Shown here: piece by piece, positions 2,052-64,000 of the stretch
Layout of the letters: each line of letters starts with the position of its first letter
Numbering within the stretch: the first letter of the stretch is position 1
Source of the DNA: Clostridiaceae bacterium
Lineage (GTDB): Bacteria > Bacillota > Clostridia > Saccharofermentanales > DTU023
Direction of reading: 5' to 3'
DNA: 64,000 nt
Assembly (NCBI GenBank): GCA_012838795.1
Contig: DUOO01000056.1
Coordinates: 1-64,000, forward strand
The notes under the pieces: generated by a model
What the model saw: the letters and a program-made list of their open reading frames with translations, nothing else
What the model was told of the DNA's origin: nothing
Databases searched by the model: none
Made by a program: the position numbers and the translations under genes

Positions 2052-3083
2052 TTATTTTGTTAATAATAATTCCAAAATATACATCTCGATTGCTTCATAA
2101 TTACCATCTTTGACATATTCATCCACTACTGCCTGATCAAATTTATCTACTTTGTCTTCCAACATTTTGACCACTTTTATTGTATTGGCCAAATGCTCAT
2201 ATGAATGTTCAAAAGATGTTGAGCGCATAGCTTTAACGTCTAAACCAACATACTTGCCTTCTTTGTCATAATCACTATCGCACAGTACTTTAATTTGATT
2301 GAACGCCGATCTTAAGTTTTCAGCTGCAAAAATCTTATCTTGATCATACTTAATACCGTTTTGATCATTTATGTGTACTGACAATAATTTATTTTGTGCA
2401 ATAGCAAAAGCCAAATCATGTGTTGCTTCCAGTCCTACCATTGTTGAATGTGCTGATTCAACCAGTACACCCATTCTGTCCGGATCGATCGTTGCATTTC
2501 CCAAAGCAATCGCATGTCCGACTGTTCCTGCATAAGAACGATCAATCGGTTCATTCGGTTTTGGTTCAATGGCAATTTTAATATTCTCATCGTATTCCAG
2601 CATAAGATTCAAAGATTTTGTCAATTGCTGTATTGTCTCCACAGGAGGTTTGCTTTCCATGCATAATGTACCTTCTCTGGCTAACCATAAAACAATAAAC
2701 TTCGCACCTAAAATATTGGCAATATCGATGGAACGATAAGTACGCCACATGGCATGTTCCCAATTTTCTTTTATTGGTGCAGTGTAAGCACCATCTTTAA
2801 ATTGAGGCTCAAACCAAAGACGCGGTGCAACGAATTCCGCTTCAAGATTATATTCATCCAACAGAGCTTTCAATTCTTTTGCTTCCGCAATGATTTGTTC
2901 TTCCGATTTACTGCTGATATCAGGTACTGCATCATCATCATGGAACTGAATTGCATCAAATCCCATTTCTGCAAACTTTTTGATTTTTTCTTTCATCGGA
3001 ATTTCATCTCTGGTAGGCGGACCATATACATCTACGCCGCTTGCTACATTCCAAGGACCCACGGAAAATTTAAATCTACTCAT
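2052..3083 (-). CDS. xylose isomerase-like TIM-barrel sugar isomerase (short, actinobacterial XylA-like)
   Basis: FHDDDAVPD, IAIEPKPNEP, DQNGIKYDQD motifs shared with XylA; 343 aa. Confidence 0.75.
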   Translation of the reverse strand: MSRFKFSVGPWNVASGVDVYGPPTRDEIPMKEKIKKFAEMGFDAIQFHDDDAVPDISSKSEEQIIAEAKELKALLDEYNLEAEFVAPRLWFEPQFKDGAYTAPIKENWEHAMWRTYRSIDIANILGAKFIVLWLAREGTLCMESKPPVETIQQLTKSLNLMLEYDENIKIAIEPKPNEPIDRSYAGTVGHAIALGNATIDPDRMGVLVESAHSTMVGLEATHDLAFAIAQNKLLSVHINDQNGIKYDQDKIFAAENLRSAFNQIKVLCDSDYDKEGKYVGLDVKAMRSTSFEHSYEHLANTIKVVKMLEDKVDKFDQAVVDEYVKDGNYEAIEMYILELLLTK

Positions 3084-14767: not shown

Positions 14768-15805
14768 TTAATCTCTTATACGAAATTTAAACCTTGTTTC
14801 AAACTGTTGAGCAGCATCTTTCGTCACAATAGGTTGTGGGAACTCAGGATGATTTAGAGAATCCGGATAAAATTGAGTTTCTAAACAAAAACCGCTCCTC
14901 TGTTTATATTCTCTGCCGTTTTTTCCTATTAATCCTTCTCCCATAAGATTTGCTGTGTATAGTTGCATTCCGGGACTGTCAGACGATACTTCAAGTTCTA
15001 TTCCTGATTCAGGAGAATACACTATGGCAGCTATTTCCAATCCTTCCGATAAAACATAGTTATGGTCATATCCTCCGGTAATCAGAAGTTGATCATAATC
15101 AGCATCGATATCCCGACCGATAGTCTTAAAAGTTCTGAAATCCATAGGTGTATTGTCTACTGACAAAAGCTTTCCTGTAGGAATGTAATCAGGCGCTATT
15201 TCTGTAAAATAATCAGAATTAATTTTTAAATAATGATTCAGTACACTATCCGAACCGTCACCGTTCAAATTGAAATAACTGTGATTTGTAAGATTTGCCA
15301 TACTTTCAGAAGGTGTCGTGACCTTGTATTTAATAATTAATTCGTTATCTTCAGTCAGGATATAACTCACATAACATTCTATTTCTCCGGGATAATTTGA
15401 ATCTTTATCCGGACTGTTAATTTTAAAAATCAATCGGCCTTCATCTTCAATACATTCCCAGACCCTGCCCCAAAAACCATTAGTGCCGCCATGCAGATGA
15501 TCATTCCCGCCATTTATTTCCAACTCAATTTGCTTCCCTTGCCAGCAAAAACGGCCTTTAGCAATTCTATTGCTGATACGGCCGATAACTGATCCGAAAA
15601 AGGCCGGGTTTGAAAAATATTGCATCGGATCCTTATACCCCAAAACAACATCCTTTAATTCCCCGTCACGATCCGGCAACTTAAGAGAAACTATTGTACA
15701 TCCGAGGTCCAAAACCTCTACGCTCATTCCGGCGCTATTATTGAGAATATATTTGTTGACTTTGTTTTTTCCGCAATCAATATATTTTTCTTTTGTTATT
15801 TTCAT
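14768..15805 (-). CDS. galM: aldose 1-epimerase
   Basis: GSVIGRISNRIAKGRF, TNHSYFNLNG, SGFCLETQFYPDS motifs. Confidence 0.9.
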   Translation of the reverse strand: MKITKEKYIDCGKNKVNKYILNNSAGMSVEVLDLGCTIVSLKLPDRDGELKDVVLGYKDPMQYFSNPAFFGSVIGRISNRIAKGRFCWQGKQIELEINGGNDHLHGGTNGFWGRVWECIEDEGRLIFKINSPDKDSNYPGEIECYVSYILTEDNELIIKYKVTTPSESMANLTNHSYFNLNGDGSDSVLNHYLKINSDYFTEIAPDYIPTGKLLSVDNTPMDFRTFKTIGRDIDADYDQLLITGGYDHNYVLSEGLEIAAIVYSPESGIELEVSSDSPGMQLYTANLMGEGLIGKNGREYKQRSGFCLETQFYPDSLNHPEFPQPIVTKDAAQQFETRFKFRIRD

Positions 15806-15834: not shown

Positions 15835-16554
15835 CTAAGGTAACAATGATCCTGCACGTACCGCGTTTGCATTATCGGCAAGACGGAATGCCTCAGCATA
15901 TCTTACACGAGACTGAATTCCGCGAAAACGTGATGTGATTATGCTATTGATGAAAAAATCCTCACCTTCCTCAGGAACAAATTGTGTATTATCTTGCATC
16001 CATGCTATTTGACTGACATGTTCACTGCACATTTTTTTCTTCACTTCAATAAAATCTGTTATATCAACATAATGTGTCGGCAGAAAACCGTGACCATGAG
16101 CAGGTTCCCAGTGGTATATTGCAGGAATTACATCATGAGGTTTTGATTCGGTTTTCAGCTTGGCTATCGGTATCATCACCGTAATGTCCCTGACAATTTT
16201 TGCTGTGAGTTCATGGTCAGGATTATAATCGACAAGACTATGGGTTAATATCACATCCGCCTTACAATATCTGACCAGATTAATGAAAGCTAGCCGCGCC
16301 TCTCGGCTTTCAAAAAACATCTCATCGTCATAATCCAGGCAAATATACTCGGCATTAATATGGGCTGCCGCCTTCCTCGCTTCTTCTTTTCTGACTCGTG
16401 CAATCTCCTCCATTGACAGTGTTGCAGAGCCGATATTGCCATTGGTTGCTGTAGCAATAAACACTTTGTGACCTAAGCTGTTGTACTTGGCTAATGTTCC
16501 TCCTGCGCTGATTTCCACGTCATCCGGATGTGCTCCGATTGCCAAAATATTCAT
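15835..16554 (-). CDS. PIG-L family deacetylase, tandem copy A
   Basis: AIGAHPDDVE and NPDHEL motifs; ~239 aa; near-identical to copies B-D. Confidence 0.92.
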   Translation of the reverse strand: MNILAIGAHPDDVEISAGGTLAKYNSLGHKVFIATATNGNIGSATLSMEEIARVRKEEARKAAAHINAEYICLDYDDEMFFESREARLAFINLVRYCKADVILTHSLVDYNPDHELTAKIVRDITVMIPIAKLKTESKPHDVIPAIYHWEPAHGHGFLPTHYVDITDFIEVKKKMCSEHVSQIAWMQDNTQFVPEEGEDFFINSIITSRFRGIQSRVRYAEAFRLADNANAVRAGSLLP

Positions 16555-16658
16555 TATTATAATCTCCGTTTCTTTTATATGCTTAATTTTTTCTTTTTAA
16601 GTTAGAGCAAATACCGCAATATACCTACGGCAATATATTGTCGCACATGAGAGCAGTC

Positions 16659-17378
16659 TTAAGGCAACAATGATCCGGCACGTACCGCATTTGCATTATC
16701 GGCAAGACGGAATGCCTCAGCATATCTTACACGAGACTGAATTCCGCGAAAACGCGATGTAATTATGCTTTTGATGAAAAAATTCTCACCTTCCTCAGAG
16801 GTATATTGTTTATTGTCTTCCATCCATGCTATTTGACTGACATGTTCATTGCACATTTTTTTCTTCACTTCAATAAAATCTGTTATATCAACATAATGTG
16901 TCGGCAGAAAACCGTGGCTTTGAGAAGGCTCCCAGTGGTATATTGCAGGAATTACATCGTGAGGTTTTGATTCGGTTTTCAGCTTGGCTATCGGTATCAT
17001 CACCGTAATATCCCTGACAATTTTTGCTGTGAGTTCATGATCAGGGTTGTAGTCGACAGGATTATGGGTTAATATCACATCCGCCTTACAATATCTGACC
17101 AGATTAATGAAAGCTAGCCGCGCCTCTCGGCTTTCAAAAAACATCTCATCGTCATAATCCAGGCAAATATACTCGGCATTAATGTGAGCTGCCGATCTTC
17201 TGGCTTCTTCTTTCCTCACTCGTGCAATCTCTTCCATTGATAATGTCGCAGAGCCGATATTGCCGTTGGTTGCTGTAGCAATAAACACCTTATGACCTAA
17301 GCTGTTGTACTTAGCCAATGTTCCTGCTGCATAAACTTCCACATCATCCGGATGTGCTCCTATTGCCAAAACATTCAT
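16659..17378 (-). CDS. PIG-L family deacetylase, tandem copy B
   Basis: same motifs and length as copy A; 824 bp offset. Confidence 0.92.
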   Translation of the reverse strand: MNVLAIGAHPDDVEVYAAGTLAKYNSLGHKVFIATATNGNIGSATLSMEEIARVRKEEARRSAAHINAEYICLDYDDEMFFESREARLAFINLVRYCKADVILTHNPVDYNPDHELTAKIVRDITVMIPIAKLKTESKPHDVIPAIYHWEPSQSHGFLPTHYVDITDFIEVKKKMCNEHVSQIAWMEDNKQYTSEEGENFFIKSIITSRFRGIQSRVRYAEAFRLADNANAVRAGSLLP

Positions 17379-17484
17379 TTTATAATCTCCTTAGAATATT
17401 TTTTCATTAATATCGCGGCGTATAAGCTGCAAATCACTGCAGTGAATCCGGAAAACTACCATACTGTCATCGATAAAAGCAGAC

Positions 17485-18204
17485 TTAAGGCAATAATGAT
17501 CCTGCACGTACCGCATTTGCATTATCGGCAAGACGGAATGCCTCAGCATATCTTACACGAGACTGAATTCCGCGAAAACGTGATGTGATCAAGCTTTCCG
17601 AGAAAAAGTTTTCGCCTTCTTCAGGGATGAATTGATGATTATCTTCTACCCAAGCTATTTGACTGACATGTTCACTGCACATTTTTTTCTTCACTTCAAT
17701 AAAATCTGTTATATCAACATAATGTGTCGGCAGAAAACCGTGACCATGAACGGATTCCCAGTGGTATATTGCAGGAATTACATCATGAGGTTTTGATTCG
17801 GTTTTCAGCTTGGCTATCGGTATCATCACCGTAATATCCCTGACAATTTTTGCTGTGAGTTCATGGTCAGGATTATAGTCGGTAAGATTATGAGTCAATA
17901 TCACATCCGCCTTACAATATCTGACCAGATTAATGAAAGCTAGCCGCGCCTCTCGGCTTTCAAAAAACATCTCATCGTCATAATCCAGGCAAATATACTC
18001 GGCATTAATGTGGGCTGCCGCCTTCCTCGCTTCTTCTTTTCTGACTCGTGCAATCTCTTCCATTGACAGTGTTGCAGAGCCGATATTACCATTGGTTGCT
18101 GTAGCAATAAATACCTTATGACCTAAGCTGTTGTACTTGGCTAATGTTCCTCCTGCACTGACTTCCACATCATCCGGATGTGCTCCGATTGCCAAAACAT
18201 TCAT
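17485..18204 (-). CDS. PIG-L family deacetylase, tandem copy C
   Basis: ORF trimmed to internal ATG (MNVLAIGAHPDDVE) to match copies A/B. Confidence 0.92.
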   Translation of the reverse strand: MNVLAIGAHPDDVEVSAGGTLAKYNSLGHKVFIATATNGNIGSATLSMEEIARVRKEEARKAAAHINAEYICLDYDDEMFFESREARLAFINLVRYCKADVILTHNLTDYNPDHELTAKIVRDITVMIPIAKLKTESKPHDVIPAIYHWESVHGHGFLPTHYVDITDFIEVKKKMCSEHVSQIAWVEDNHQFIPEEGENFFSESLITSRFRGIQSRVRYAEAFRLADNANAVRAGSLLP

Positions 18205-18309
18205 TTTATAATCTCCGTTTCTTTTATATGCTTTATTTTTTAATTGGATATAATACCGCAAAAATAGTCATACATCTGCGGCAATATGTTGTCGCACATA
18301 AGAGCAGAC

Positions 18310-19029
18310 TTAAGGCAACAATGATCCGGCACGTACCGCATATGCATTATCGGCAAGACGGAATGCCTCAGCATATCTCACACGAGACTGAATTCCGCGA
18401 AAACGCGATGTAATCAAGCTTTCTGAGAAAAAATCTTCGTTTTCATCAGCAACAAATTGTTTATTGTCTTCCATCCATGCTATTTGACTGACATGTTCAC
18501 TGCACATTTTTTTCTTCACTTCAATAAAATCTGTTATATCAACATAATGTGTCGGCAGAAAACCGTGGCTGTGAAGAGGCTCCCAGTGGTATAGTGCAGG
18601 AATTACATCATGAGGTTTTGATTCGGTTTTCAGCTTGGCTATCGGTATCATCACCGTAATATCCCTGACAATTTTTGCTGTGAGTTCATGATCAGGGTTA
18701 TAGTCGGTAAGATTATGTGTCAATATCACATCCGCCTTACAATATCTGACCAAATTAATGAAAGCTAGCCGCGCCTCTCGGCTTTCAAAAAACATCTCAT
18801 CGTCATAATCCAGGCAAATATATTCAGCATTAATATGGGCTGCCGATCTCCTGGCTTCTTCTTTTCTGACTCGTGCAATCTCTTCCATTGACAGTGTTGC
18901 AGAGCCGATATTGCCATTGGTTGCTGTAGCAATAAATACCTTGTGACCTAAGCTGTTGTACTTAGCCAATGTTCCTGCTGCATAAACTTCCACATCATCA
19001 GGATGTGCTCCGATTGCCAAAATATTCAT
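18310..19029 (-). CDS. PIG-L family deacetylase, tandem copy D
   Basis: ORF trimmed to internal ATG (MNILAIGAHPDDVE); the longer ORF would overlap the permease 3' end. Confidence 0.92.
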   Translation of the reverse strand: MNILAIGAHPDDVEVYAAGTLAKYNSLGHKVFIATATNGNIGSATLSMEEIARVRKEEARRSAAHINAEYICLDYDDEMFFESREARLAFINLVRYCKADVILTHNLTDYNPDHELTAKIVRDITVMIPIAKLKTESKPHDVIPALYHWEPLHSHGFLPTHYVDITDFIEVKKKMCSEHVSQIAWMEDNKQFVADENEDFFSESLITSRFRGIQSRVRYAEAFRLADNAYAVRAGSLLP

Positions 19030-19057: not shown

Positions 19058-20035
19058 TTATTTCTTTTCTTTCTTAGTTTGAGCAAGTACTGCAATAAAT
19101 AGTAATATACCTATGGCAATATACTGGTAGAAATCAGGCATTCCGATCATTATTAAACCATTTTTGAGCATGTAGACGATCATAACACCGAAGAAGGTCA
19201 TCCCTATACTTCCCTTGCCTCCTTCCATGGCCGTACCGCCCACGAGTGCAGAGGCTATTCCTTCCAGTGCATAAAGTTCACCGACAAAAGGTTGTTGCGA
19301 CCCCGTTCGCATCGAAACCAACATACCCGCTGTAGCAGCCAAAAAACCGGACGCCATAAACATAAATAATCGAATGTTTTTCACATTAATTCCGCTGATA
19401 TAGGCTGATTTATGATTGTGTCCGACCAAATATATTGAACGTCCAACTCTGTGATATTTCATAAAAAGAGCAAAAATTATGTAAATAACGATCATAATTA
19501 TGACAGGAAGTTGTACATTGCCACCCAGCACTTTTTCTTGTCCTATTCTCACATAAGGCTTATAAATTTCTCCCACCATCGCACGCGGCATTCCTTGGGT
19601 CCATATAAAAATTAAACCCCTGTATATTTGTTGCAGAGCGTAGGTTGTTATAAACGCATTCATGCCCAGTCGGGATACTGCCATTCCTGCAATAAATCCT
19701 GAAAATAATCCGACCAACCAGCCTACCAATATAGAGACGACAAGCGGAGCACCTTGCTCTATGGCAACGGCAGCAAAAAGTCCTGCAAACGAGGCAACCA
19801 TGCCTACCGACAAATCAATAAAACCACCTATAATACATATACATTCACCTATCGCAATCAGACCGACTTGAACAGACGTCAGCAAGATGCTATGAAAATT
19901 CGAATAGGAGAGGAATGTAGAACGCATACTCGTAAATATAATTATTTCAACAATCAGAATCAGGAACGTCATTACTTTATCTAAAGAACCACGCTTCATT
20001 CTTTCCAAAATGTATAAATCTTTATTCTTAGACAT
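19058..20035 (-). CDS. CUT2 sugar ABC transporter permease
   Basis: GGFIDLSVGMVASFAG, LVGGTAMEGGKGSIG. Confidence 0.9.
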   Translation of the reverse strand: MSKNKDLYILERMKRGSLDKVMTFLILIVEIIIFTSMRSTFLSYSNFHSILLTSVQVGLIAIGECICIIGGFIDLSVGMVASFAGLFAAVAIEQGAPLVVSILVGWLVGLFSGFIAGMAVSRLGMNAFITTYALQQIYRGLIFIWTQGMPRAMVGEIYKPYVRIGQEKVLGGNVQLPVIIMIVIYIIFALFMKYHRVGRSIYLVGHNHKSAYISGINVKNIRLFMFMASGFLAATAGMLVSMRTGSQQPFVGELYALEGIASALVGGTAMEGGKGSIGMTFFGVMIVYMLKNGLIMIGMPDFYQYIAIGILLFIAVLAQTKKEKK

Positions 20036-20056: not shown

Positions 20057-21022
20057 TCAATTTTGTCGACTCGTTTGAAGCATGACAGCTATAAACAATA
20101 TTAATCCCGATGCTATATATTGATAAAAAGCAGGAAGACGAATCATATTCAGACCGTTCTGCATACCTACCATGATCAGAACTCCAATAAAAGTCATGGC
20201 TATATTGGCTTTTCCGCCTCCCATTTTGGTCCCGCCGACAACTGTAGCTGAAATTGCCTGCATTGCATATAATTCTCCGATAATCGGATTAGCAGAAGCC
20301 GAACGTGAAGCAAAAACCAGACCGCCCAGAGCAGCCATACCGCCGGACAGAACAAAACAAAAGAACTGAATCGACTTAACCGGAAGACCGGCATTCTTTG
20401 CTGCTTCAATATTTCCGCCTACAATAAACAATGATCGTCCGAACTTGGTATATTTGAATACAAAATAAACTATGACATAGATAATGATCAATAATAATAT
20501 CGGCAGTGTAATGCTATTTGTAATTTTCGTCTGTCCTAACACTTTAAATTCCGGATACGCAGACATATTAATTGCTTTTCCCCCAGTTATAATCATGATA
20601 ACACCACGCCAGATTTGCATTAGGGCATATGTCGACATCCAAGCAGGCATCATGAACCATGCTGTTGAAACACCCGCTATCGCTCCGGAAAAAAGACCGA
20701 AAAACAACGCTATAGCAAAGGCCAGCCAGGTATTCATTCCGAACTGAGTAATTAAGGTTGCCCAAATTACCCCGGCTAATGAAGCCACCATCCCGGGAGA
20801 CATGTCAAAAACACCGGTTACCAGACAGGCACATTCTCCGATGGCAATTAGGCCTAACGGAACAGCAGAAATCAGAATTGTTATTATATTATCTTTTTTC
20901 AAAAAATATTCTGAGCCGATTGAAAAAACTAATATCATAATAGTAAAGGCTGCAACGATCAATATTATTTGTTTCACATCAGAAGTTAATTTTATCCTCT
21001 TCTTTTTAGAACTATTCTCCAT
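20057..21022 (-). CDS. CUT2 sugar ABC transporter permease (second subunit)
   Basis: TGVFDMSPGMVASLAG, VVGGTKMGGGKANIAMT; start trimmed to MENSSKKKR overlapping the ATPase end. Confidence 0.88.
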   Translation of the reverse strand: MENSSKKKRIKLTSDVKQIILIVAAFTIMILVFSIGSEYFLKKDNIITILISAVPLGLIAIGECACLVTGVFDMSPGMVASLAGVIWATLITQFGMNTWLAFAIALFFGLFSGAIAGVSTAWFMMPAWMSTYALMQIWRGVIMIITGGKAINMSAYPEFKVLGQTKITNSITLPILLLIIIYVIVYFVFKYTKFGRSLFIVGGNIEAAKNAGLPVKSIQFFCFVLSGGMAALGGLVFASRSASANPIIGELYAMQAISATVVGGTKMGGGKANIAMTFIGVLIMVGMQNGLNMIRLPAFYQYIASGLILFIAVMLQTSRQN

Positions 21023-22559
21023 ATCCACTCTCCTCCAGAGTATCAAAATGAGTATCGAAGGCATATTTAATTACATCTTCTTCTGTCAAATCAATATTTT
21101 CAAGATTACCGGTAACACGTCCTTCACACATTACTATGATCCTGTCGCTGACCCCAAGAATTTCCGGCAATTCGGAACTAACCATAAGAATCGATTTCCC
21201 TTCCTTAGCTAATTTTTTTAATGCATCGTAGACTTCAACTTTCGCTCCTACATCAATTCCCCTGGTTGGTTCATCAACAATAAGAATGTCACAATTAGCC
21301 ATTACCCATTTTGACAAAACAACTTTTTGTTGATTTCCTCCTGAAAGTCCTACAGCCAGCATTTCCCGACCGGATGTTTTTACATCAAATAAAGATATGC
21401 CTTGATCTGCATATGCCTTTTCTTTGTTTAGCATTAAAATATCAAACTTATTCAAAACTTCTGCTAAGTTCGGCATGCTGAGATTCCATGTAAGAGATGC
21501 ATTAAGCATAAGTCCTTCTTCGCGACGATTCTCAGTTACAAATCCCATGCCTAACTTGTTTGCTTCTCTGGGATCACGAATATTTACTTTTTGGTTTTTT
21601 AAGTAAAGAGTACCGGAATCTTTTTTGTCAGCAGCAAACAAGCCTCTGACAAATTCTGTTCTGCCGGCTCCGACCAGACCGTATAAACCAACAATTTCAC
21701 CTTTGCGCAATTCTAAAGAAACATCCTGATAATGATGTCCGCAAGAAAAATTTTCCGCTTTTAACATTATTTCATCTTTGATGTACGATCTGTCTTTCGG
21801 TTCACCAAAGAAATTAATACCGCGTCCAATCATCATCGATACAAGCTCATCGCTTGTAGTCTCGCTTATTTTCTTCGTGTCGACATATTCTCCGTCTTTA
21901 AGAACAGTAACTACATCACAGATGCTGAATATTTCTTTTAGTCTATGACTGACATATATTATTGCCACTCCTTGTGATCTTAAGTCATTAATAAGTTCAA
22001 ACAAACTTTCTGCTTCATCATCCGACAAAGACGATGTTGGTTCATCAAATGCAAGCACTTTGATATTTTCATCAATTAATGCACGCATAATCTCTATCAA
22101 TTGCCAACTCCCCATGCTCAGATCACCGGCCTTTGATTTTACGTTTAAGCTTTGTGCGTGTCTTCCCAACCCTTGTTTTACATTGTTCGCCAGGCTGAAC
22201 ATTTTCTCCCAATCAATCAGTCCCAATTTTGTAGTTGGTTGACTACCCAAAAAGATATTTTCTGCTACAGTTAAGTCTCTCAGTATTTGAATTTCTTGAG
22301 GAACTACATGAATACCATATTTCCGTGCGGACTCAACACTTCGGATATCCGCTTCTTCACCATCTATAAATATATTTCCGGAATCCTTTGAATAGAGTCC
22401 GGTTGCGATTTTTAACAAAGTTGACTTCCCGGCACCGTTTTCTCCGCAGAGACCATGTACTTCACCTTTTTTAATGCTTAAACTGACATCATTTAATGCC
22501 TGAACACCCGGAAATGCTTTATCTATGTGCTTCATCTCTAAAATAATTTGACTATCCAC
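21012..22559 (-). CDS. CUT2 sugar ABC transporter ATP-binding protein
   Basis: GENGAGKSTLLK, LSGGNQQKVVLSKW, VDEPTRGIDVGAK. Confidence 0.93.
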   Translation of the reverse strand: MDSQIILEMKHIDKAFPGVQALNDVSLSIKKGEVHGLCGENGAGKSTLLKIATGLYSKDSGNIFIDGEEADIRSVESARKYGIHVVPQEIQILRDLTVAENIFLGSQPTTKLGLIDWEKMFSLANNVKQGLGRHAQSLNVKSKAGDLSMGSWQLIEIMRALIDENIKVLAFDEPTSSLSDDEAESLFELINDLRSQGVAIIYVSHRLKEIFSICDVVTVLKDGEYVDTKKISETTSDELVSMMIGRGINFFGEPKDRSYIKDEIMLKAENFSCGHHYQDVSLELRKGEIVGLYGLVGAGRTEFVRGLFAADKKDSGTLYLKNQKVNIRDPREANKLGMGFVTENRREEGLMLNASLTWNLSMPNLAEVLNKFDILMLNKEKAYADQGISLFDVKTSGREMLAVGLSGGNQQKVVLSKWVMANCDILIVDEPTRGIDVGAKVEVYDALKKLAKEGKSILMVSSELPEILGVSDRIIVMCEGRVTGNLENIDLTEEDVIKYAFDTHFDTLEESGYGE

Positions 22560-22646: not shown

Positions 22647-23933
22647 TTATTCTTCTATATAATTATCATAGTATTCTTGAACCGTATCTTCCTTAACAAC
22701 AATCAAATCGTATGGAGAGAAGGCCGGAATCGGTGTTCCATTCTCAAAGAGATCATGTAATAATTCAACCATTCCCACTCCGGAAGGATAAGGCACTAAA
22801 CCATAACCGTAACCCGCTGTTGCAACAGCAGGATCTGCAAGCATTAAATTAATCGGATCCGGCGTAGAGAAGCAATCTAAAATACGTGTATTATTAGCTA
22901 TATCAACACCATTTTCGCTGAAAAGAGTAGCTGTAGGTACTAATGCTGCTGCTCCGCCTGCTACACTGATCCAAACATCAACATCATCTTTATATGCTTG
23001 AATCGTACTTCCCATTTTGTCCAAATGGTCTTCGGTTAAACTGGCACCGCAATCCAGCTCTACAATTCGATCTGCCGGAATATCAGGGAAAGCATCCAAT
23101 ATAGCATCCTTTGCACCTACGCAACGATTGTGAATAGCTTCTACAGCCGGGCTATCCTGGATAACTAAGAGGAAATTTGAATAATCTTCATTAACATTAT
23201 CCATAAAGCCGTCTTCTTTCATCTCTTCGCACATGACTTTGGCAGTTTCGTTGGATAACCACCAGTCATATAAGCCCCAATGCGGACTATAAAAGCCGTA
23301 AGAATCCGGACCTGGATCATCTGTGGTCAAATATGCTATTCCTGCCTCTTGCAATTTTGTTACTGCTTCAGGAAGGAGGGAGGTGTTTACCGGAGTCATG
23401 ATAACAGCATCAAAATCTTGGTTAATTATGTTTTCAATTCCGTCTACCCATGCCTGCTCATCAGAGTTTGCATCAATATAGAGATACTCATATCCATATT
23501 TATCACAAGTGTCCTTACATGCTTGATCTTTAGGCGTAAACCATGCACCTGAGAATTTGCAAACAAATGCTACTTTGTATTTACCGTCTGCGCCAAAGTC
23601 CTTGTAATTCGGATAGTTGCTGTAATACCACACATCAGTATCTTCAACATATTCATAACCTGTATAAGGATCCGATTCCAGTGTTCCTGCGTCACGCATG
23701 GCTGCAGCTTCTTCTTCGCTGAGAGGACCATCGGCTTCTTCTGCTTTATCAGGTTCTTCTGCTTTATCAGATTCTTCTGCTTTTTCCGTTTCTTCTGCTT
23801 TCTCTGTTTCTTCTGCTTTTTCTGTTTCTTCTGCTTTCTCTGTTTCTTTGGATTCGTCATCTTTTTTGTCGCCGCAAGCAACTAAGCCGAAGACCATAAT
23901 CAGAGTGAGTAAAATCGCAATGATTTTTTTCAT
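22647..23933 (-). CDS. sugar ABC transporter substrate-binding lipoprotein with acidic repeat linker
   Basis: lipobox LVACG, ETEKAE hexapeptide repeats, periplasmic-binding-protein domain. Confidence 0.88.
   Translation of the reverse strand: MKKIIAILLTLIMVFGLVACGDKKDDESKETEKAEETEKAEETEKAEETEKAEESDKAEEPDKAEEADGPLSEEEAAAMRDAGTLESDPYTGYEYVEDTDVWYYSNYPNYKDFGADGKYKVAFVCKFSGAWFTPKDQACKDTCDKYGYEYLYIDANSDEQAWVDGIENIINQDFDAVIMTPVNTSLLPEAVTKLQEAGIAYLTTDDPGPDSYGFYSPHWGLYDWWLSNETAKVMCEEMKEDGFMDNVNEDYSNFLLVIQDSPAVEAIHNRCVGAKDAILDAFPDIPADRIVELDCGASLTEDHLDKMGSTIQAYKDDVDVWISVAGGAAALVPTATLFSENGVDIANNTRILDCFSTPDPINLMLADPAVATAGYGYGLVPYPSGVGMVELLHDLFENGTPIPAFSPYDLIVVKEDTVQEYYDNYIEE
23739..23846 (-). repeat. 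18-bp coding tandem repeat (6 units of E-x-x-KAE)
   Basis: translated ETEKAE x4, ESDKAE, EPDKAE immediately after the lipobox region. Confidence 0.9.
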
Positions 23934-25284: not shown

Positions 25285-26430
25285 TTAACTATTGCCTATT
25301 AATGCACTCTCTTCTTTACGTGTCCAAGTCCCGTCTCCGATATACGAACCGGGAAGTGGGTCGGGAATTACAAAATCCGATTTTAATGTGTACTCTTTTC
25401 TTTCTTTTGAACTGATCATAATTCCATGCATCATTTCAAAAATATGGAAAGCCATTTCTTTACTTGCTCTATGCTCACGACCCTTTAAAATAGCCCATGC
25501 CATTTCCGCTGCTCCCAACCCTCTTGAATTCTCTTGATATCCGTGAGTAAAAGGTATCAGCAACTCATCGCCTGACTCTTTTTGAAGATAAAGCTCCGGG
25601 CCGAACAAATTCGGATCACCCATAATAAGAATTCCATCTGTACCATATATTTCAAGATTAGTTTTTTCTTTCAAAATGCTGTCTGAGTTCATATGCAATG
25701 TGCCTAAGACACCATTTTTATATTTCAACAAGGCTGTCAGCACATTCGGTACTTCTATTTGATATTCTTGATCAAAACCGGATTCACCTATCCTCGTATT
25801 CCGTCTTATAGGTTTGTGAATCGATGTATATCCGTAAACAGATTCAACCGGTCCCAAGATGGAAGCCAAAGCTGTCAGATAATAACCGCCCATATCAAAC
25901 CCTATACCTGCTCCTTCTTTGTGAAGATGTGGTAAAAACTCGCCAAAAGCACCATAATCACGACTTACAGAAGCACGACAGGATATCGGTTCTCCGATCA
26001 GGCCGGCATCAACAACATATTTTGCAGTCTGGATGCTCGCCCCCAAAAAGGTATCCGGAGCAACTCCCAGATGCAATTTTTTTTCATTTGCAAGAGCTAC
26101 TAACTCTTCACCTTCTTCTAAATTCACAGCTATCATCTTTTCGGACCAAACATGTTTGCCGGAAAGAAGGCTTTGTTTAGTAATACTATAATGTGCATTA
26201 GGTGTTGTAAGATTGATCACTAATTCAATCTCGGAATCGGCACAAATTTCCTCAAAAGTCATTGCCTTTATATTGTATTTCTGAGCTTTTTCTTCCATTC
26301 GGTCTTTATCAAGATCACTGCAGCCTATTAACTCAATTACAGTAAATTTACCGCTTGTAAAATTACTCATATAGATATCACTGATACTACCGCATCCTAC
26401 TATTGCAGCTTTGATTTTATCCATTTTCAT
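25285..26430 (-). CDS. Gfo/Idh/MocA-family oxidoreductase
   Basis: N-terminal AAIVGCGSISDIY nucleotide-binding motif; SEKMIAVNLEEGEELV. Confidence 0.88.
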   Translation of the reverse strand: MKMDKIKAAIVGCGSISDIYMSNFTSGKFTVIELIGCSDLDKDRMEEKAQKYNIKAMTFEEICADSEIELVINLTTPNAHYSITKQSLLSGKHVWSEKMIAVNLEEGEELVALANEKKLHLGVAPDTFLGASIQTAKYVVDAGLIGEPISCRASVSRDYGAFGEFLPHLHKEGAGIGFDMGGYYLTALASILGPVESVYGYTSIHKPIRRNTRIGESGFDQEYQIEVPNVLTALLKYKNGVLGTLHMNSDSILKEKTNLEIYGTDGILIMGDPNLFGPELYLQKESGDELLIPFTHGYQENSRGLGAAEMAWAILKGREHRASKEMAFHIFEMMHGIMISSKERKEYTLKSDFVIPDPLPGSYIGDGTWTRKEESALIGNS

Positions 26431-26547: not shown

Positions 26548-27777
26548 TTATAAACTTTCAATTATCTCTCTGATCTTAGTTGCAGTATCATTAATATCAT
26601 CCAATGAGGAGTTAATGTTGACACCGACACCGGATCCTAACCCTTTGTCTACAACTCCAATTGAAATATTCACCGCTCTGTCCAATATCGAATCTGTTTG
26701 AGGAAGCATATGTTTATGATACTCACTCTTTACAACATACTTCGGACAATCATAAGGACAATTTGCCTCTGTGGCAGTTATTTTGTTCAGAATTTGTTCC
26801 ATATTATTGTAAACATGCCATCCTGAATGAGATATAGGTACTGAATTAATAGCTTCACAGAACTTGTCGGCATACTCTTTCGTATCAAATATCAGTGTCA
26901 GTAACGTTGCACATTCATTTTCATCATTAATTGTCCGGAAGGAAAATTTCGACAAATCACTGAGTTTGTTCTTAAGTATAGATTTGTTATTTCTTAACTT
27001 CTCCAAAATTCCATCTAACTTTCGTCCTTGAGCTAAAGCAACAGCACCGGATAATTCGTTCATCCTCAAATTCATACCGACGATAGAGCGATTGCCGACT
27101 TCCACACCCATGCGATGCGGTTTATGTCCCTGGTCATGATAACCGAAAGCTCTCTCATATAAATTTTGATCCGAAGTACCGACAAAGCCGCCATCTCCGG
27201 TCGTTATCGTCTTAAAAGTATTCAGGGAGTAGGCGGCTATATCTCCGATCGTACCCAAACGCTTGCCTTTATATGCGGCACCTACCGCTTGACAACAATC
27301 TTCAATCACATACAAATTATGTTTTTTTGCAATTTCCATGATGGGATCCATATCACACGGATTTCCTAACATATGGACCGGCATAATAGCTTTTGTCCGA
27401 TCTGTAATCAATTCCTCGATCCTTGCAGGATCAATAGTCAAAGACTCATCGATTTCAGCCAGAACGGGAATCGCATTTGCTAAAATAATAGATGACATCG
27501 AGGCAATGAATGTATATCCGGGAACAATGACTTCATCACCTGCTCCTATTCCCAAAGCCGCCAAACAACATAACAAAGAACCTGTACCTGAACTTGTGGC
27601 AACTACATATTTATGACCTAAACGTTCTGCCATTTCAGCTTCAAAACTTGCAACTTTTCCCAGAAAACCGTCAACACCTATCGTTCCGTATCTGAACAGA
27701 TTTCCACTCTCAATTACATCCATCAATTCTTTTTTCTCTTCTGCTCCAAAAACATATGAACCAGGACCACCAGCCAT
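26548..27777 (-). CDS. DegT/DnrJ/EryC1/StrS family PLP-dependent aminotransferase
   Basis: TSSGTGSLLCCLAALGIGAGDEVIVPGYTFIAS; IEDCCQAVGAAYKGKRLGTIGDIAAYSLNTFKTITTGDGG with PLP lysine. Confidence 0.9.
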   Translation of the reverse strand: MAGGPGSYVFGAEEKKELMDVIESGNLFRYGTIGVDGFLGKVASFEAEMAERLGHKYVVATSSGTGSLLCCLAALGIGAGDEVIVPGYTFIASMSSIILANAIPVLAEIDESLTIDPARIEELITDRTKAIMPVHMLGNPCDMDPIMEIAKKHNLYVIEDCCQAVGAAYKGKRLGTIGDIAAYSLNTFKTITTGDGGFVGTSDQNLYERAFGYHDQGHKPHRMGVEVGNRSIVGMNLRMNELSGAVALAQGRKLDGILEKLRNNKSILKNKLSDLSKFSFRTINDENECATLLTLIFDTKEYADKFCEAINSVPISHSGWHVYNNMEQILNKITATEANCPYDCPKYVVKSEYHKHMLPQTDSILDRAVNISIGVVDKGLGSGVGVNINSSLDDINDTATKIREIIESL

Positions 27778-28100
27778 AAAATTCTCTCCTTTCAAAAAAA
27801 GACTATTTCATTAAACCTATCTCTCTAATCTTTGATTTACAAAAATACTATTTAATTAAAACTTTTTTACTAAATTTAAATTCATTACAAGGACAAAACT
27901 GCCGGAAAATTTAACACCGAATTTATTCTTAACATTCTTTAATGATTGATATTAAGCTAATAATTAAAATCCCATAAAATTGTCCAAACTAAAGAACAAA
28001 CGATATTCCAAAAAAATTACGAATAAATAAACTATGACAAATTACAATTAATTGTTTAATTATTGTAAAATAATTAGACAATTATTACAAACAATTTTCT

Positions 28101-41067: not shown

Positions 41068-42198
41068 TTACTCAATAATTGCAAAGTCTTTTACATTATC
41101 TACATTGTCTTTAGTTATTAACAAACAATCTACAAGCTGCTTTTCAGGTTGTCCGGTAGAACCGGTTTTAACAAATAAATCCATTTGGTCAACACACATT
41201 GTTGCGCTGGTACTTACCAGATCCATAGCCGTAGCTACAATCTCACCGTTTCTGATACCTTCCAAAACTTCATCTATTCCATCAAAGCCCGCTATAACTA
41301 TATCCTCTTTACCTGCAGCTTTTGCGGCAGCTAAAGCTCCAAGAGCCATGTCATCATTACCACAAATTATGCCTTTGATATCGGGATTTTCTTGCAGGAC
41401 TGATTCTACTTTAGCAAAAGCTTCATTACGATCCCAATTTGCACTTTGTTGAGAAACTAACTCGAGATCCGGATACTGACTCAATACTTCCGCAAATGCG
41501 TCAGATCTGATCTTAGATTGAGTATCAGATTCTTTACCGACTAATTCAGCATATTTGCCTTCTTCACCCATTCCTTCTGCAAAAGCCATCGCTACTTCGC
41601 TTGCTCCTGAATAATTATTAGCAGTAATTTGGGTTATTGCTATACCGTTTTCATTGATTTCACGGTCAAGTAAGAATACGGGTACACCTGCATCAGTTGC
41701 TTTTTTTACCGACTCGATAGATGCATCTGAACCGGCGTTATCACAAATAATTGCCAGTGCTTTATCCGAAATTGCCGAATCAAACAATTGACTTTCTTTT
41801 TGTGCATCATCATCATGCGATACTAATTTTGCTTCATAGCCTAATTCAACTAATCTTTTTTCTGAAAAATTATAAATTGCATCAAAATATGCGTTTTCTC
41901 TGGAAGCTGCAATTACATATACCAGTTTGCTATCCGGATTTGCTAATTCAAATGCTGCATCTGAAGGCTCTTCTTCCACTTCTTCAACTTCTTCTTCAGC
42001 TTTTTCAGTTTCTTCTTCTTTAGCTTCTTCAGTTTCTTCTGCTTCTTCTTTACCTGCATCTTCTGCAGCTTCGGTTTTTTCTTCAACCTTTTTGTCTGAA
42101 TCTTTCTCAGACTCTTCGTCTTTTCCTTTGCATCCTACTACTGTCAGAAGCATAACAACTACTAATAACAGAGCAGAAATTATTCTTAGTTTTTTCAT
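41068..42198 (-). CDS. sugar ABC transporter substrate-binding lipoprotein (RbsB-like) with acidic linker
   Basis: start trimmed to MKKLRIISALLLVVVMLLTVVGCKG with aggaggaa RBS; YVIAASRENAYFDAIY, ICGNDDMALGALAAA. Confidence 0.9.
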   Translation of the reverse strand: MKKLRIISALLLVVVMLLTVVGCKGKDEESEKDSDKKVEEKTEAAEDAGKEEAEETEEAKEEETEKAEEEVEEVEEEPSDAAFELANPDSKLVYVIAASRENAYFDAIYNFSEKRLVELGYEAKLVSHDDDAQKESQLFDSAISDKALAIICDNAGSDASIESVKKATDAGVPVFLLDREINENGIAITQITANNYSGASEVAMAFAEGMGEEGKYAELVGKESDTQSKIRSDAFAEVLSQYPDLELVSQQSANWDRNEAFAKVESVLQENPDIKGIICGNDDMALGALAAAKAAGKEDIVIAGFDGIDEVLEGIRNGEIVATAMDLVSTSATMCVDQMDLFVKTGSTGQPEKQLVDCLLITKDNVDNVKDFAIIE

Positions 42199-47095: not shown

Positions 47096-47875
47096 CTACA
47101 TTTTTTCACCTTTTCTGGCTCTGGAACAAAAATCACAGTTCGGATTTTTACAAAGAAAATAATATGGATCTTCTGATAATTTCATCATACAGAAATCATG
47201 CAATTCTTTGGCATTCATCAGCTGAGTTACCGCATTTCCTACCTTACCGTAGCGAATTAATCCGTTTTCCCGAAGATCTGCTGTTATATTAATAAAATTT
47301 CTATGTCCTTCAGGAAAATCCACCAACTGAAATACTCCATTTCCATTGTATGGCGGATACAAGGGAGCCGGAATTTCAAGGCTCATGAAGTAAGACGCTT
47401 TGCTTTCATGTTCAAAAGCATGTAATATTGTGTTCCTGTCTTGATCAACTCCCAGTAATAAAACTTTGCCATTCCACTGCCAAAGTTTATAAAAAGGACT
47501 GCCGGCGCCACATCCGGAAGTGCATTTATCATGATCCGAACAAAATTCTTCTGCTTTATGGCCCAGAGCAACTACTGAATGAACCGGAAACAAACTTCTT
47601 ACTGCGCCTTTTGTGTTACGTAAAGTTTCAGATAATAAGCCAACATTTGATTTAGATGTTAAAGGATCAAACGGATCAAAAGGTGATGTCATTGCAGGCA
47701 TTGCCAAAAGTCCTTGCGGACCAAGTATTTCCATTAACACATCTATTACTGCTTCAGCACCGCCTTGAACTTTTCCGATACTTCCGAAAGCACTGTGAAC
47801 AAAAAGCAAATCACCTTCTTCCACACCGCATTGTCGAAATGAAAAACGTAATTCTTGCAGCCCTATAGTTTTCAT
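47096..47875 (-). CDS. AAC(3)-family (aminoglycoside 3-N-acetyltransferase fold) protein
   Basis: GDLLFVHSAFGSIGKVQGGAEAVIDVLMEILGPQGLLAMPAMTS pattern; Cys-rich tail CKNPNCDFC. Confidence 0.8.
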   Translation of the reverse strand: MKTIGLQELRFSFRQCGVEEGDLLFVHSAFGSIGKVQGGAEAVIDVLMEILGPQGLLAMPAMTSPFDPFDPLTSKSNVGLLSETLRNTKGAVRSLFPVHSVVALGHKAEEFCSDHDKCTSGCGAGSPFYKLWQWNGKVLLLGVDQDRNTILHAFEHESKASYFMSLEIPAPLYPPYNGNGVFQLVDFPEGHRNFINITADLRENGLIRYGKVGNAVTQLMNAKELHDFCMMKLSEDPYYFLCKNPNCDFCSRARKGEKM

Positions 47876-53240: not shown

Positions 53241-54427
53241 TTATTTTCTGTTCATCACATCAAACGCTACTGCAATAATAAAGATGATACCTTTAATGAT
53301 ATATTGATAAGCAATACCTACACCCATTAAATTAAGACCGTTTGTCAGAGACATAATTACCAGAGCACCAATGATGGTATTCGTCACTTTACCGATACCG
53401 CCCGAGGTTGACGTTCCGCCTATGTAGCATGATGCAATAGCATCCAACTCAAAACCGGCACCAGCCGTAGTAGATGCCGACTGCAGACGAGATGCAAAAA
53501 GAATTCCTCCCAGGGCTGTCATCAATCCCATGGACGCGAATACAAACAAGCGAATCTTGTTCACAGAAACACCAGCAAGAGCTGCTGCCTCAGCATTTCC
53601 TCCGACACCGTAAATATAACGGCCCAAACGAGTTTTCTCCATCATGAAATTATATACAAATGTCACTATTGCTACAATTACAATACTCCAGGAAAGTCCT
53701 CTATACTGAGCCAGAACAACTGCAACTACTCCAATCAGCACAGAAATGAAGATCAGTTTTGCAATAAATACAGGCTTCGAAAGCACCTCGAAATTATAAT
53801 GCTGCATATTCTTACGATGTTTTATTTGAGAATAAATTGCCAGAACGATTGCTATCACGCCTACCACAAGAGAAAGAGTATGCATGCCTGCAATTTCTCC
53901 GATATCAGGTACAAAACCGTTGGAATTGCATTGAACGGCTCAACAGCAATAGGAATCGTTCCGGATTCAGATGTAATCAAAGACAACATTCCGCGGAAAA
54001 TGAACTCGAAAGCCAAGGTTGTTACAAATGCCGGCACACCCATTTTTGTTATGACCAGACCTTTGATCAAACCAAAGAATATTCCAAGTATCAACACCAG
54101 AGTAATGGCAATCCACACATTGATATTCAGACGTACCATCATAATCGCAGCTACTGCTCCCAAGAAACCTGCCATATATCCGACAGATAAATCAATTTCA
54201 CAAATAATCAATACCAATGTCATCGCTACTGCCATAACAGCAATATAACCCGTTTGATTGATGAGATTTGTCAGATTTCTCGGTGATAAAAATGCGCCGT
54301 CTGTAAATATCGCAAAAATGATAAATATTACTGCCAGTGCAATGTACATGGCATAATCTCGTACTCTGGTTCTCATCAGGATTTTTATTTCTCCTCCGAG
54401 ACTGCTCTTTCCTGCTGTATTATTCAT
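53241..54427 (-). pseudogene. CUT2 sugar ABC transporter permease interrupted by a 1-nt frameshift
   Basis: N-terminal part in ORF 53861..54490 and C-terminal part in ORF 53241..53885; frames join near 53917-53921 (IPT/GFVPDIGEIAG). Confidence 0.85.
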
Positions 54428-55970
54428 TGTAAGCCTCCTCTGTCTTTGTTGCCATACGCATAATGTTTTGCTCATTAGCCTTTTCAGCACTGACTTCTCC
54501 GGTAATTGTTCCTTCCGCCATAACGTAGATGCGGTCGCTCATCCCCAAAATTTCAGGCAAATCTGAAGAAATCATGATAACCGAATAACCTTCGCCTACC
54601 AGACGATTAATTATGGTATAAATCTCATATTTAGCTCCGACATCAATTCCTCTGGTCGGTTCATCAAGAATCAATATCTTCGGATCTGAAAATAACCATT
54701 TTGCTATCTGCACTTTCTGCTGATTTCCTCCAGAAAGATTTACTACTTTCTGTGCAATAGAGGGTGTTTTGATATTCAGCGAATCCTTATACTCATTTAC
54801 ACGCACTATTTCTTCATTCGCATTCACCACCATCCCGTTTTGAATTGCTTCCAGATTGGTAAGCGACACATTAAACTTGATATCCTGAATAAGAATCAAA
54901 CCGTTACGCTTTCGGTCCTCGGATACATATGCAATTCCTGCTTCCATGGCATCCTTAGGTTCCTTAAAATTCATTTTTTTTCCTTCTATGAAAATTTCGC
55001 CATTTAAAAGTTGGTATTTCGGATTATTGCCAAATACGGACAATGCCAGCTCCGTTCTGCCTGCTCCCATGAGGCCGGATAAACCCACAACCTCCCCTTT
55101 ATGTACTTTTAAACTAACCTTATTCAGAATGACACGTTCAACAGAAGTATCATATACAGTCCAATCTTTAAGCTCCAGGGCTATGTCGCCGATTTTTTTA
55201 TTTTCGCGTTTCGGATATACATTATCTATCTCACGCCCTACCATATACTTAATAATAGTACCTTCTGCAACCTTGCCACCTGCTGCCTCCAGAGAACAAA
55301 TTGTTGCACCGTCACGCAGTACGGTAATGGTATCTGCAATATTTACAACTTCTTTCAGACGATGCGAGATCATGATCGAGGTTACGCCCTCTTCCTTTAA
55401 ATCCCGCAGTAACTGTAAAAGGTTTAAACTGTCATCCTCATTTAATGATGCTGTCGGTTCATCTAAAATTAAGAGTTTTGCTTTTTGAGATAAAGCCTTT
55501 GCAATTTCTACTAATTGTTGCTTCCCTATACCCAGTTCCCAAATTTTCTTAGAGGGATTTACATTCAGATGAATCTGCTCCAACAGTTTTTCAGACTCCA
55601 CAATGGTCTGATTCCAGTTTATCGTCCGACCATTGGTATTCATTATTTCATGTCCGAAGAAAATATTTTCATATATCGTCAAATCGGGAATCAGTGCCAG
55701 CTCCTGGCTGATAATTGCAATTCCGGCAAGCTCAGAGTCCTTAGTAGACATAAACCTTTGTACTTTACCGTTATATATAATATCACCCGAATAATCTCCA
55801 TATTTATATACACCGGATAAAATCTTCATAAGCGTAGATTTACCTGCTCCGTTCTCGCCTACAAGACAATGAATTTCTCCGCGTTTCACTTTGAAGTTTA
55901 CATTATCAAGTGCACGAACACCGGGAAACGTCTTAGTAATATCACGCATTTCCAAAATATAGTCGTTCAA
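54420..55970 (-). CDS. CUT2 sugar ABC transporter ATP-binding protein
   Basis: GENGAGKSTLMKILSGV, LSGGNQQKVQIAKWL, LDEPTRGIDVGAK. Confidence 0.93.
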   Translation of the reverse strand: MNDYILEMRDITKTFPGVRALDNVNFKVKRGEIHCLVGENGAGKSTLMKILSGVYKYGDYSGDIIYNGKVQRFMSTKDSELAGIAIISQELALIPDLTIYENIFFGHEIMNTNGRTINWNQTIVESEKLLEQIHLNVNPSKKIWELGIGKQQLVEIAKALSQKAKLLILDEPTASLNEDDSLNLLQLLRDLKEEGVTSIMISHRLKEVVNIADTITVLRDGATICSLEAAGGKVAEGTIIKYMVGREIDNVYPKRENKKIGDIALELKDWTVYDTSVERVILNKVSLKVHKGEVVGLSGLMGAGRTELALSVFGNNPKYQLLNGEIFIEGKKMNFKEPKDAMEAGIAYVSEDRKRNGLILIQDIKFNVSLTNLEAIQNGMVVNANEEIVRVNEYKDSLNIKTPSIAQKVVNLSGGNQQKVQIAKWLFSDPKILILDEPTRGIDVGAKYEIYTIINRLVGEGYSVIMISSDLPEILGMSDRIYVMAEGTITGEVSAEKANEQNIMRMATKTEEAYNE

Positions 55971-57372: not shown

Positions 57373-58338
57373 TTAGTAACCTACCTTGTCCCAGCAGTCA
57401 AAAGGCGCTGCGATTTCCTCACTGACATATACCTGGGTTTTCATTAATTGCAGCATGGAGCTGGGAATTGAAGGTGTTACCGGTCCGTGCAGTACCAAAC
57501 GAGAAGTCATTCTCTGCCAAGATGAGAACGTGTTGTTAGTCAAAAGAGAATGTACTTCAATACGTTCTTTGGCATTTTTTACATCAATCGGTCCGATTGT
57601 AGCTGCTTTGGGAGGTACATTCGCTATATAACCGGACTGTCCGAATATACCATGCAGGGAATTCTGTGCTACGGTCAACGGATGCAGGGTTACAATACGT
57701 GCCTCCATGTTCAGCCATTTGTCTATATCATCTGACATAAACTCATCTACCGGATCGATAAAAGCCATATGACCGGTCCATCCCGGAGATGAACTGCAGA
57801 TGTCCGCACCGCCCTCACTAATTTCTGTAATCAGCTTGGAGTAATACCCTATATTTTCGTTGGTCGGATAATGAACATTTTCCAAAGGCATACGAAGTTT
57901 CGGATCAATCTGATATACGAAATATTTCAGCAGGGAACGTGCAAAACTGGCTTCATAGGTTATCGGTGCAATATTTCCCTGATCATCTGCCCACTCATCC
58001 ATCGCAAAAAGGTGTAATTTCTTGCAATCTACCTGGAAATAGTTAATCAGCTGAGCCAGAGGAATATAGGTGTCCGGCTCCGGATTGCCAAGAATCATGG
58101 TATATTTTTTATCAGCTTCAGAAGCAGCTTTCAAACGGGAAAACAAGGTCGCAATTAATACCGGATGAGGATTCATCATCACCTTTATTTTAAAATCCGG
58201 ATTTTCATGATTCTCTAAATCTTTTCCGCTGATTTGACGAAGTCTTTCGCATACATCTCGATCTTTGAACGGAACATAATCACCACATTTAAACTCAAAT
58301 TTTGTTGTCGGTTCTAAGATAATATCCTTCATTGCCAT
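57373..58338 (-). CDS. glucosamine-6-phosphate deaminase/isomerase (NagB)-like protein
   Basis: FAMDEWADDQGN, SPGWTGHMAFIDP, NSLHGIFGQSGYIANVPPKAATIG. Confidence 0.8.
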   Translation of the reverse strand: MAMKDIILEPTTKFEFKCGDYVPFKDRDVCERLRQISGKDLENHENPDFKIKVMMNPHPVLIATLFSRLKAASEADKKYTMILGNPEPDTYIPLAQLINYFQVDCKKLHLFAMDEWADDQGNIAPITYEASFARSLLKYFVYQIDPKLRMPLENVHYPTNENIGYYSKLITEISEGGADICSSSPGWTGHMAFIDPVDEFMSDDIDKWLNMEARIVTLHPLTVAQNSLHGIFGQSGYIANVPPKAATIGPIDVKNAKERIEVHSLLTNNTFSSWQRMTSRLVLHGPVTPSIPSSMLQLMKTQVYVSEEIAAPFDCWDKVGY

Positions 58339-58706: not shown

Positions 58707-59507
58707 TCAGACTGCAAAACTCATGATTTTTTCTTGATTTATTTCATCGCCTTCTAAAATATTAACAATATGCCCTTCTTTCATTATGGCAACTCTGTCA
58801 CTCATATTGATTATCTCCGGAAGTTCTGAAGAAATTATAATTATCGATGCCCCGGATTTAGCTAAATTATTAACAATATTATATATATCAGATTTAATAT
58901 TTATATCCATACCCTTGGTCGGTTCATCAAGAATCAAAATTAAGGGATTTGTTTCTAGATATTTAGCAATGACAATTTCTTGTTGATTTTCTTCGAAAAA
59001 GTCAAACATTTTTTGTTCAGTGTTGGAAGTATGAATATCCAGCTTGTTTGTTCTTTTCAATAATATTCTTTCTTCTTTATTTTTATTCAAGTAAATAAAT
59101 TTAATAAATGTTTCCAAAATACCTATCTTGGTATTAATACTCACTGAGTTATTAAGGATTAAACTTTCTTCTTTATTTTCCGGAACCAGTACCAGTCCGG
59201 CATTAAGAGAATCTTTCGGACTATGCTTTAAGGGAAGTTCTTCTCCGGCTATTATTATTTCACCTGAATCAGCCAGCTCAATACCGAAGATTGCTTTAGC
59301 AAGTTCAGACCGGCCTGATCCGACCATTCCTGATATTCCCAGTATTTCGCCTTTTTTTAAATCGAAATTAATATCGTTAAAAACCCCTTTTTTTGACAAT
59401 CCTTTGACTTCTAAACAAACTTCAATCCCGGGAACAGAGTCTTTCATGTAGAATTCCTCCAGAGTTCTTCCTGCCATCATAGATGCTAATTTTCTTTTAT
59501 CTGTCAT
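58707..59507 (-). pseudogene. half-size RbsA-like ABC ATPase (C-terminal NBD only), probable remnant
   Basis: 266 aa beginning in the inter-NBD linker (LASMMAGRTLEEFY); Walker A GMVGSGRSEL present; signature LSGGNQQK replaced by FFEENQQE. Confidence 0.7.
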
Positions 59508-63114: not shown

Positions 63115-64000
63115 TTAATATTGGAATTCATAATCCGGTACAACCGGTGCTGCAATTGTTTCGGTTACATAAACATCTGCTCCCAACAACTGTAGAATTG
63201 AAGAAGGAACTGAAGGTGTAACAGGCCCGTGAAGTACCAATCTGGAAATTAATCTTTGCCATGCCACAAAAGTTCCGGCTGTTGAAATTCCATGCATTTC
63301 AATTCTTCTCTTTGATGCAGCAACATCACGTGGTCCGATTGTTGCAGCTTTAGGCGGTACATTGGCAATATCACCGCTTGCACCGAAACAGCCATGCAAA
63401 GAATTTTGAGCTATTGTCAAAGGATGTAACGATGTAACCCTGGTACCCATTTTCATAAATTCATCAAGATCACCTGCAAACTCCGGAACATCAGGATCAA
63501 TAAACGCCAAGTGTCCCGACCAGCCGGGTCCGCTGTAACAGACATCCGCTCCGCCGGCTTCTAAAATAAGATCACTATAATGATCGATATTTTCATTTGT
63601 CGGATAAATCAGATTTTCTTCCGGCATTCTCAATTCCGGATCAATATTGCTCAGCAAAAATTTCTTGGTACTGCGAATAAATGAATTCGGATAACTTTCA
63701 TCAGCTATATTGCCGTTTTCGTCCGCCCATTCATCCATGTTAAACGTAATTACGTGTTTGCAATCAATTCTCAGACGATTGATCATCCAAGCTAAATGTT
63801 TATAAGAAGGAGACGGATTAGGAATAATCATTACTGCATTTCTTCCTTCCTCTTTTGCCCGGATAATTGTATTGAGCATATCGGTTACAAAAATCGTATT
63901 CAGCATATCATTCGGAATCACATTGATTTTAAAATCAGGGTTAGAGTGGTTTAAATAATCCTCTCCTTGTAGAGTACGTACACGTTCCAGAACAGATTGA
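63115..64000 (-). CDS. NagB-like protein, 5' end beyond the window
   Basis: FNMDEWADENGN, SGPGWSGHLAFIDP, NSLHGCFGASGDIANVPPKAATIG; frame upstream of the called GTG stays open (QSVLERVRTLQGEDYLNHSNPDFKIN) to the window edge. Confidence 0.82.
   Translation of the reverse strand, partial: QSVLERVRTLQGEDYLNHSNPDFKINVIPNDMLNTIFVTDMLNTIIRAKEEGRNAVMIIPNPSPSYKHLAWMINRLRIDCKHVITFNMDEWADENGNIADESYPNSFIRSTKKFLLSNIDPELRMPEENLIYPTNENIDHYSDLILEAGGADVCYSGPGWSGHLAFIDPDVPEFAGDLDEFMKMGTRVTSLHPLTIAQNSLHGCFGASGDIANVPPKAATIGPRDVAASKRRIEMHGISTAGTFVAWQRLISRLVLHGPVTPSVPSSILQLLGADVYVTETIAAPVVPDYEFQY

Follow-up and report, generated by a model that had tools for sequence, protein, structure and literature searches.

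Four tandem PIG-L genes beside a sugar importer in a Clostridiaceae bacterium, with permease scars between copies and signs of sequence exchange

In the window that we analysed, a 64,000-nt stretch of a contig from a Clostridiaceae bacterium, four PIG-L genes of 720 bp each lie head to tail on the minus strand (15835-19029) as the product of tandem amplification. Scars of the 3' end of the adjoining permease gene are still present ahead of copies A and C, the copies have exchanged sequence, and all four are under constraint. In reading direction the order is permease, D, C, B, A, galM (Table 1), and each gap is named here after the copy that it precedes. We consider it reasonably probable that the array arose by a two-step amplification followed by exchange, and that its products are deacetylases whose substrate range is tuned at the rim of the active site. 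Tandem amplification is well known already, and the array, real and well preserved, is ordinary in kind and not a new kind of system; in the collection of papers that was searched, none dealt with PIG-L tandem arrays.

Table 1. Features of the array and of its neighbourhood. L007 is a comparison locus with a single PIG-L gene.
Feature	Position	Strand	Evidence and remarks
PIG-L copy A	15835..16554	-	Last in transcription order; open 239-aa frame; PF02585 E 6.6e-28
Gap upstream of A	16555..16658	-	Permease 3'-end scar, leader and ribosome-binding site; z 11.5, 0/1000 shuffles
PIG-L copy B	16659..17378	-	Open 239-aa frame; PF02585 E 7.9e-27
Gap upstream of B	17379..17484	-	Without detectable permease scar; probable junction of second duplication
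PIG-L copy C	17485..18204	-	Open 239-aa frame from ATG; PF02585 E 1.2e-27
Gap upstream of C	18205..18309	-	Decayed permease 3'-end scar; breakpoint sequence in common with gap A; z 5.7
PIG-L copy D	18310..19029	-	First, adjoins permease; open 239-aa frame from ATG; PF02585 E 3.9e-26
ABC sugar permease, RbsC/AraH type, source of scars	19058..20035	-	PF02653 E 7.9e-36
Second ABC sugar permease, same importer	20057..21064	-	PF02653 E 3e-32; first start codon uncertain
Sugar ABC importer ATPase, two ATP-binding halves	21012..22559	-	Named by sequence motifs in ORF translation
Sugar-binding lipoprotein of importer	22647..23933	-	PF13407 E 1e-19
Aldose 1-epimerase (galM)	14768..15805	-	Directly downstream of array; NF008277 300.5 bits, cut-off 240
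Gfo/Idh/MocA-family oxidoreductase	25285..26430	-	PF22725, PF01408; 24% identity to L007 gene
DegT-family aminotransferase	26548..27795	-	PF01041; blastp 60% identity to L007 gene adjoining PIG-L
Xylose-isomerase-like TIM barrel	2052..3083	-	PF01261; blastp 57% identity to L007 cluster gene

All four copies match PF02585 with 92-98 bits against a curated cut-off of 28.2, which places them in the PIG-L / LmbE-like superfamily. From copy to copy the spacing is 824, 826 and 825 bp, and the pairwise identity is 91.3-93.6% for DNA and 92-94% for protein, so that the four very similar tandem genes of about 239 aa described in the initial annotation are borne out. Its remark that none of the copies looks dead agrees with the open frames, the conserved motifs and a dN/dS of 0.14-0.22.

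The initial annotation had also read the C-terminus of the upstream permease in the gap between A and B, and a more decayed version of it in the gap between C and D, and both readings hold. The permease gene at 19058-20035 ends in QYIAIGILLFIAVLAQTKKEKK before its stop codon; gap A encodes RQYIAVGILRYLL and gap C encodes RQHIAADV, each again followed by a stop codon. For the alignments of gaps against the permease on the same side, the shared leader was removed first and only the coding tail of the permease was used. None of 1000 dinucleotide shuffles reached the score of either gap A or gap C, and the score of gap B was like chance (z = 0.6). With alternative trimming and mononucleotide shuffles, gaps A and C were still strong and gap B gave z values of 1.1 to 1.9. 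A permease scar in gap B was rejected, there being no signal in local or global alignment. The second permease was rejected as source of the scars, with no clear signal for any gap. Compared with gaps A and C directly, gap B gave a z of about 1-2, and what it has in common with them is limited to the ribosome-binding site and about a dozen bases that follow the stop codon. Gap B, the sole gap without a permease scar, contains a 12-bp perfect palindrome, TCACTGCAGTGA, at 17434-17445. We rejected this as a repeated operator: there is one exact copy in the window, and allowing two mismatches gave no more matches than chance would.

Across the breakpoint, gaps A and C are alike over 29 bp at 93% identity, and the first part of this common sequence is absent from the permease, hence we consider that the two gaps descend from one junction. 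Among the sites that divide the copies two against two, 19 group A with C and B with D, 12 group A with B and C with D, and 6 group A with D and B with C. Because A and C share a breakpoint, gap B is scarless and the AC/BD pattern is the commonest, at least two duplications, of the gene with the permease tail first and of a two-gene block next, fit the data better. Precisely, a single PIG-L (LmbE-like) gene would have stood beside the sugar ABC importer, and a segment from the 3' end of the permease through the deacetylase gene would have been duplicated, leaving the permease scar; the two-gene block would then have been duplicated in turn, with a new junction arising upstream of B. Of the reading in the initial annotation, tandem duplication with permease-tail scars stands. 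A single repeating unit, permease tail plus one gene, is poorly supported, because gap B has no detectable scar. Against the two-step order counts the length of gap B (106 bp), which is near-equal to that of the scarred gaps (104 and 105 bp) and is not predicted by it; the similarity may be a coincidence, or the scar may have decayed or been replaced past recognition.

The 18 minority sites contradict the AC/BD tree. We simulated parallel mutation under this tree with five settings of rate variation and 2000 runs each, and the incompatible sites had a mean of 0.8 to 4.5 and a maximum of 15, so the observed number exceeded the simulated maximum in every rate model. When one informative site per codon was considered, 14 minority sites were left. 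None of the simulations had a 95% bound higher than 8, but the extreme of the harshest one (15) was not exceeded. Since incompatible sites exceed those simulated by parallel mutation, recombination is well supported, and the copies have exchanged sequence, presumably through unequal crossing-over or gene conversion, and all four would have been kept working by purifying selection in the meantime. With one site per codon, the spatial clustering of site patterns was weak (runs p 0.07; neighbour incompatibility p 0.90); as pattern clustering along the gene is not significant, clear conversion tracts cannot be drawn. The array resembles other tandem paralogue arrays with gene conversion (concerted evolution) in its neighbouring copies, sequence exchange and purifying selection, but in this case the exchange is partial, the copies are 6-9% apart and their differences are clustered.

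The comparison of dN/dS between copies, proposed as a check in the initial annotation, gave 0.14-0.22 for all pairs and hence indicates constraint. We found no positive selection: the variable segments, which were delimited with the data in view, also have a dN/dS below 1. The 28 codons with amino-acid changes are not spread along the gene but clustered (dispersion 2.9; 0 of 5000 random placements as clustered), mainly at residues 106-108, 151-154 and 186-205. A mild clustering is seen in the synonymous changes as well (p 0.016), and these tend to lie within three codons of amino-acid changes (permutation p 0.002, rotation p 0.013), the effect being weaker in wider surroundings; this clustering by amino-acid changes is only suggestive, with rotation p from 0.01 to 0.12. 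The synonymous pattern, moderate in effect, is suggestive of what would be expected if exchange homogenises the rest of the gene and selection spares the differing islands. The same islands also vary among single-copy homologues (26 of 47 positions, vs 70 of 192 elsewhere), and relaxed constraint would be an alternative for their amino-acid part. That the variable residues simply lie in loops was rejected, loop enrichment in the model of copy D being not significant (p 0.17). Like the lack of positive selection, this counts against the main reading.

This model, an AlphaFold2 prediction from an alignment of 11 sequences, has a mean pLDDT of 87.6. Its matches in the PDB, 42 with E up to 0.001, are of the PIG-L/LmbE type throughout and include, among the best, diacetylchitobiose deacetylases and BshB. 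The active-site loops of BshB govern access and specificity (review PMC4101496), and the acetyl pocket of Pch-Dac includes Ile46 (PMC9779004). In phmmer alignments the variable residue 15 aligns with this Ile46, and the variable residues 106-108 come ahead of the zinc ligand His114. Within 186-205 the prediction is in part poor (at 191-200 the block mean pLDDT is 54), and the placement of that segment at the rim therefore rests on alignment. The clustered differences, most of them close to loops that presumably form the rim of the active site, would favour a modest diversification of specificity over pure dosage, so that to the question of dosage or diversification posed by the initial annotation they lean to the second, short of proof.

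Pure dosage, in which the copies are equivalent and persist because a large inflow of substrate through the importer makes additional enzyme worthwhile, is possible but somewhat unlikely. It agrees with the intact copies, the protein identity and the low dN/dS given above, with a ribosome-binding site of its own ahead of each copy, and with promoter-like sites that in this region are not in excess of shuffles; it does not account for amino-acid changes that are clustered, some of them at residues aligned with the substrate pocket region. We regard as more doubtful still that the array is a natural library of specificity variants, in which exchange would keep the catalytic core uniform, selection against conversion would preserve four different active-site rims, and one importer would feed four deacetylases, each for one or other of a set of related acetylated amino sugars.

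As for the activity, the zinc ligands His9, Asp12 and His114 and the base Asp11 are invariant in A-D and their homologues, and Arg55 is kept (cf. BshB Arg53). The position of BshB His110, the conserved substrate-binding His typical of LmbE enzymes (PMC4101496), is Asn111 in the array proteins. This substitution, together with the fold that the hydratase GalB shares (rank 19 among the structural matches), would be in line with another PIG-L-fold activity such as that of GalB instead of a deacetylase; we consider this improbable, given the invariant residues just listed and the sugar-catabolic surroundings. The best NCBIfam match of the array proteins is TIGR04001 (BshB1, the bacillithiol deacetylase; PDB 2ixd, 6p2t, 6ull), with which they share the fold, the HxDD...H zinc motif and a similar length. 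They differ from it in the residue at 111, in a context of sugar import and not of bacillithiol synthesis, and in scores of 107-111 bits that stay below the equivalog cut-off of 182.5 bits. The top structural match to the model, with a TM-score of about 0.78, is the N,N'-diacetylchitobiose deacetylase (CE14; PDB 8bgn, 8bgo, 3wl3), which acts on acetylated sugars, as is predicted for the array proteins; it is archaeal, has about 25% identity to them, and has a C-terminal His259. Related enzymes are hexamers (PMC9779004, PMC4101496), and in Pch-Dac the C-terminal extension of a neighbouring subunit gives His259 to the active site (PMC9779004). It is thus conceivable, but quite improbable, that A-D form hetero-hexamers with active sites combining parts of neighbouring subunits, since residue 230 is the single position at which the copies differ in the final 31 residues. 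Although the genome is a draft in 63 contigs, an assembly artefact or a mixture of strains joined into a false array is very improbable, because the copies differ at 6-9% of sites (46-63 of 720 per pair) and the longest exact repeat among them, 121 bp, is shorter than a typical read, so that short-read sequencing of the usual kind could tell the copies apart, and because no two of the gaps are alike throughout.

The company of the genes suggests catabolism of an imported N-acetylated amino sugar, the substrate being a prediction. At L007 the genes that come after PIG-L encode, in a row, a DegT aminotransferase, a Gfo/Idh oxidoreductase and a xylose-isomerase-like protein; in the window, the oxidoreductase adjoins the aminotransferase and is of the same broad family as that of L007. 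The likely route would be import, de-N-acetylation, oxidation, transamination and isomerisation of the amino sugar. The four proteins would act in it as zinc amidohydrolases, removing the N-acetyl group from a set of closely related amino sugars after import and ahead of the last three steps, and the clustered differences near the rim may tune their substrate range.

Other observations concern the sugar genes of the contig at large. Acidic repeat linkers (of KAEETE type and similar) follow soon after the signal peptide in two sugar-binding lipoproteins (23736-23848 and 41969-42087), with a similar linker in a further binding protein at about 70.6-71.8 kb of the contig. A match to Antibiotic_NAT, the aminoglycoside 3-N-acetyltransferase family (PF02522, 171 bits), lies amid sugar-catabolic genes at 47096-47875; it does not reach the cut-offs that NCBIfam sets for named AAC(3) enzymes and so does not imply a role in resistance. 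A sugar ABC permease at 53241-54490 is apparently split into overlapping frames (53241-53885 and 53861-54490), by a frameshift or a sequencing error. Two similar genes resemble glucosamine-6-phosphate deaminase (57373-58338, a weak NCBIfam match, and 63115-63921), and a sugar-importer ATPase of 266 aa at 58707-59507, about half the usual length, is possibly a remnant.

Of the genomes that we searched, only the present one carries the array; the nearest relatives stand at about 65% identity and occur as single copies. No other genome among the 188 searched in the order had a match at E up to 1e-45, and the class sample gave only one relative of the deacetylases, a single copy at 65%. Relatives at 64-65% were present as one copy each in G208 (L009, same class) and, from a pattern scan, at L006 and L007. 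These three, about 65% identical over the full length, likewise stand beside sugar-metabolism genes; they differ from the array in having one close copy per genome and no adjoining importer permease in the stretches read. A-D form one clade with support 100/100, as lineage-specific head-to-tail copies. The array genome has five PIG-L genes, against at most one in any other genome of the genus; the fifth lies at contig position 74.5 kb and has just 38% identity. The permease that left the scars had no close relative in the family or class sample. A pre-duplication version was not found in relatives, the family and order being without a close homologue of deacetylase or permease, and matches in PLSDB plasmids were all below 40% identity.

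The array is a readable record of a metabolic gene amplified beside its own transporter, with the breakpoints still visible. If the copies do not differ in specificity, it is an ordinary dosage array. Their specialisation is plausible, and if they do differ in specificity, the array would show how duplicated enzymes begin to diverge while they still exchange sequence, a phase that is lost in most cases.
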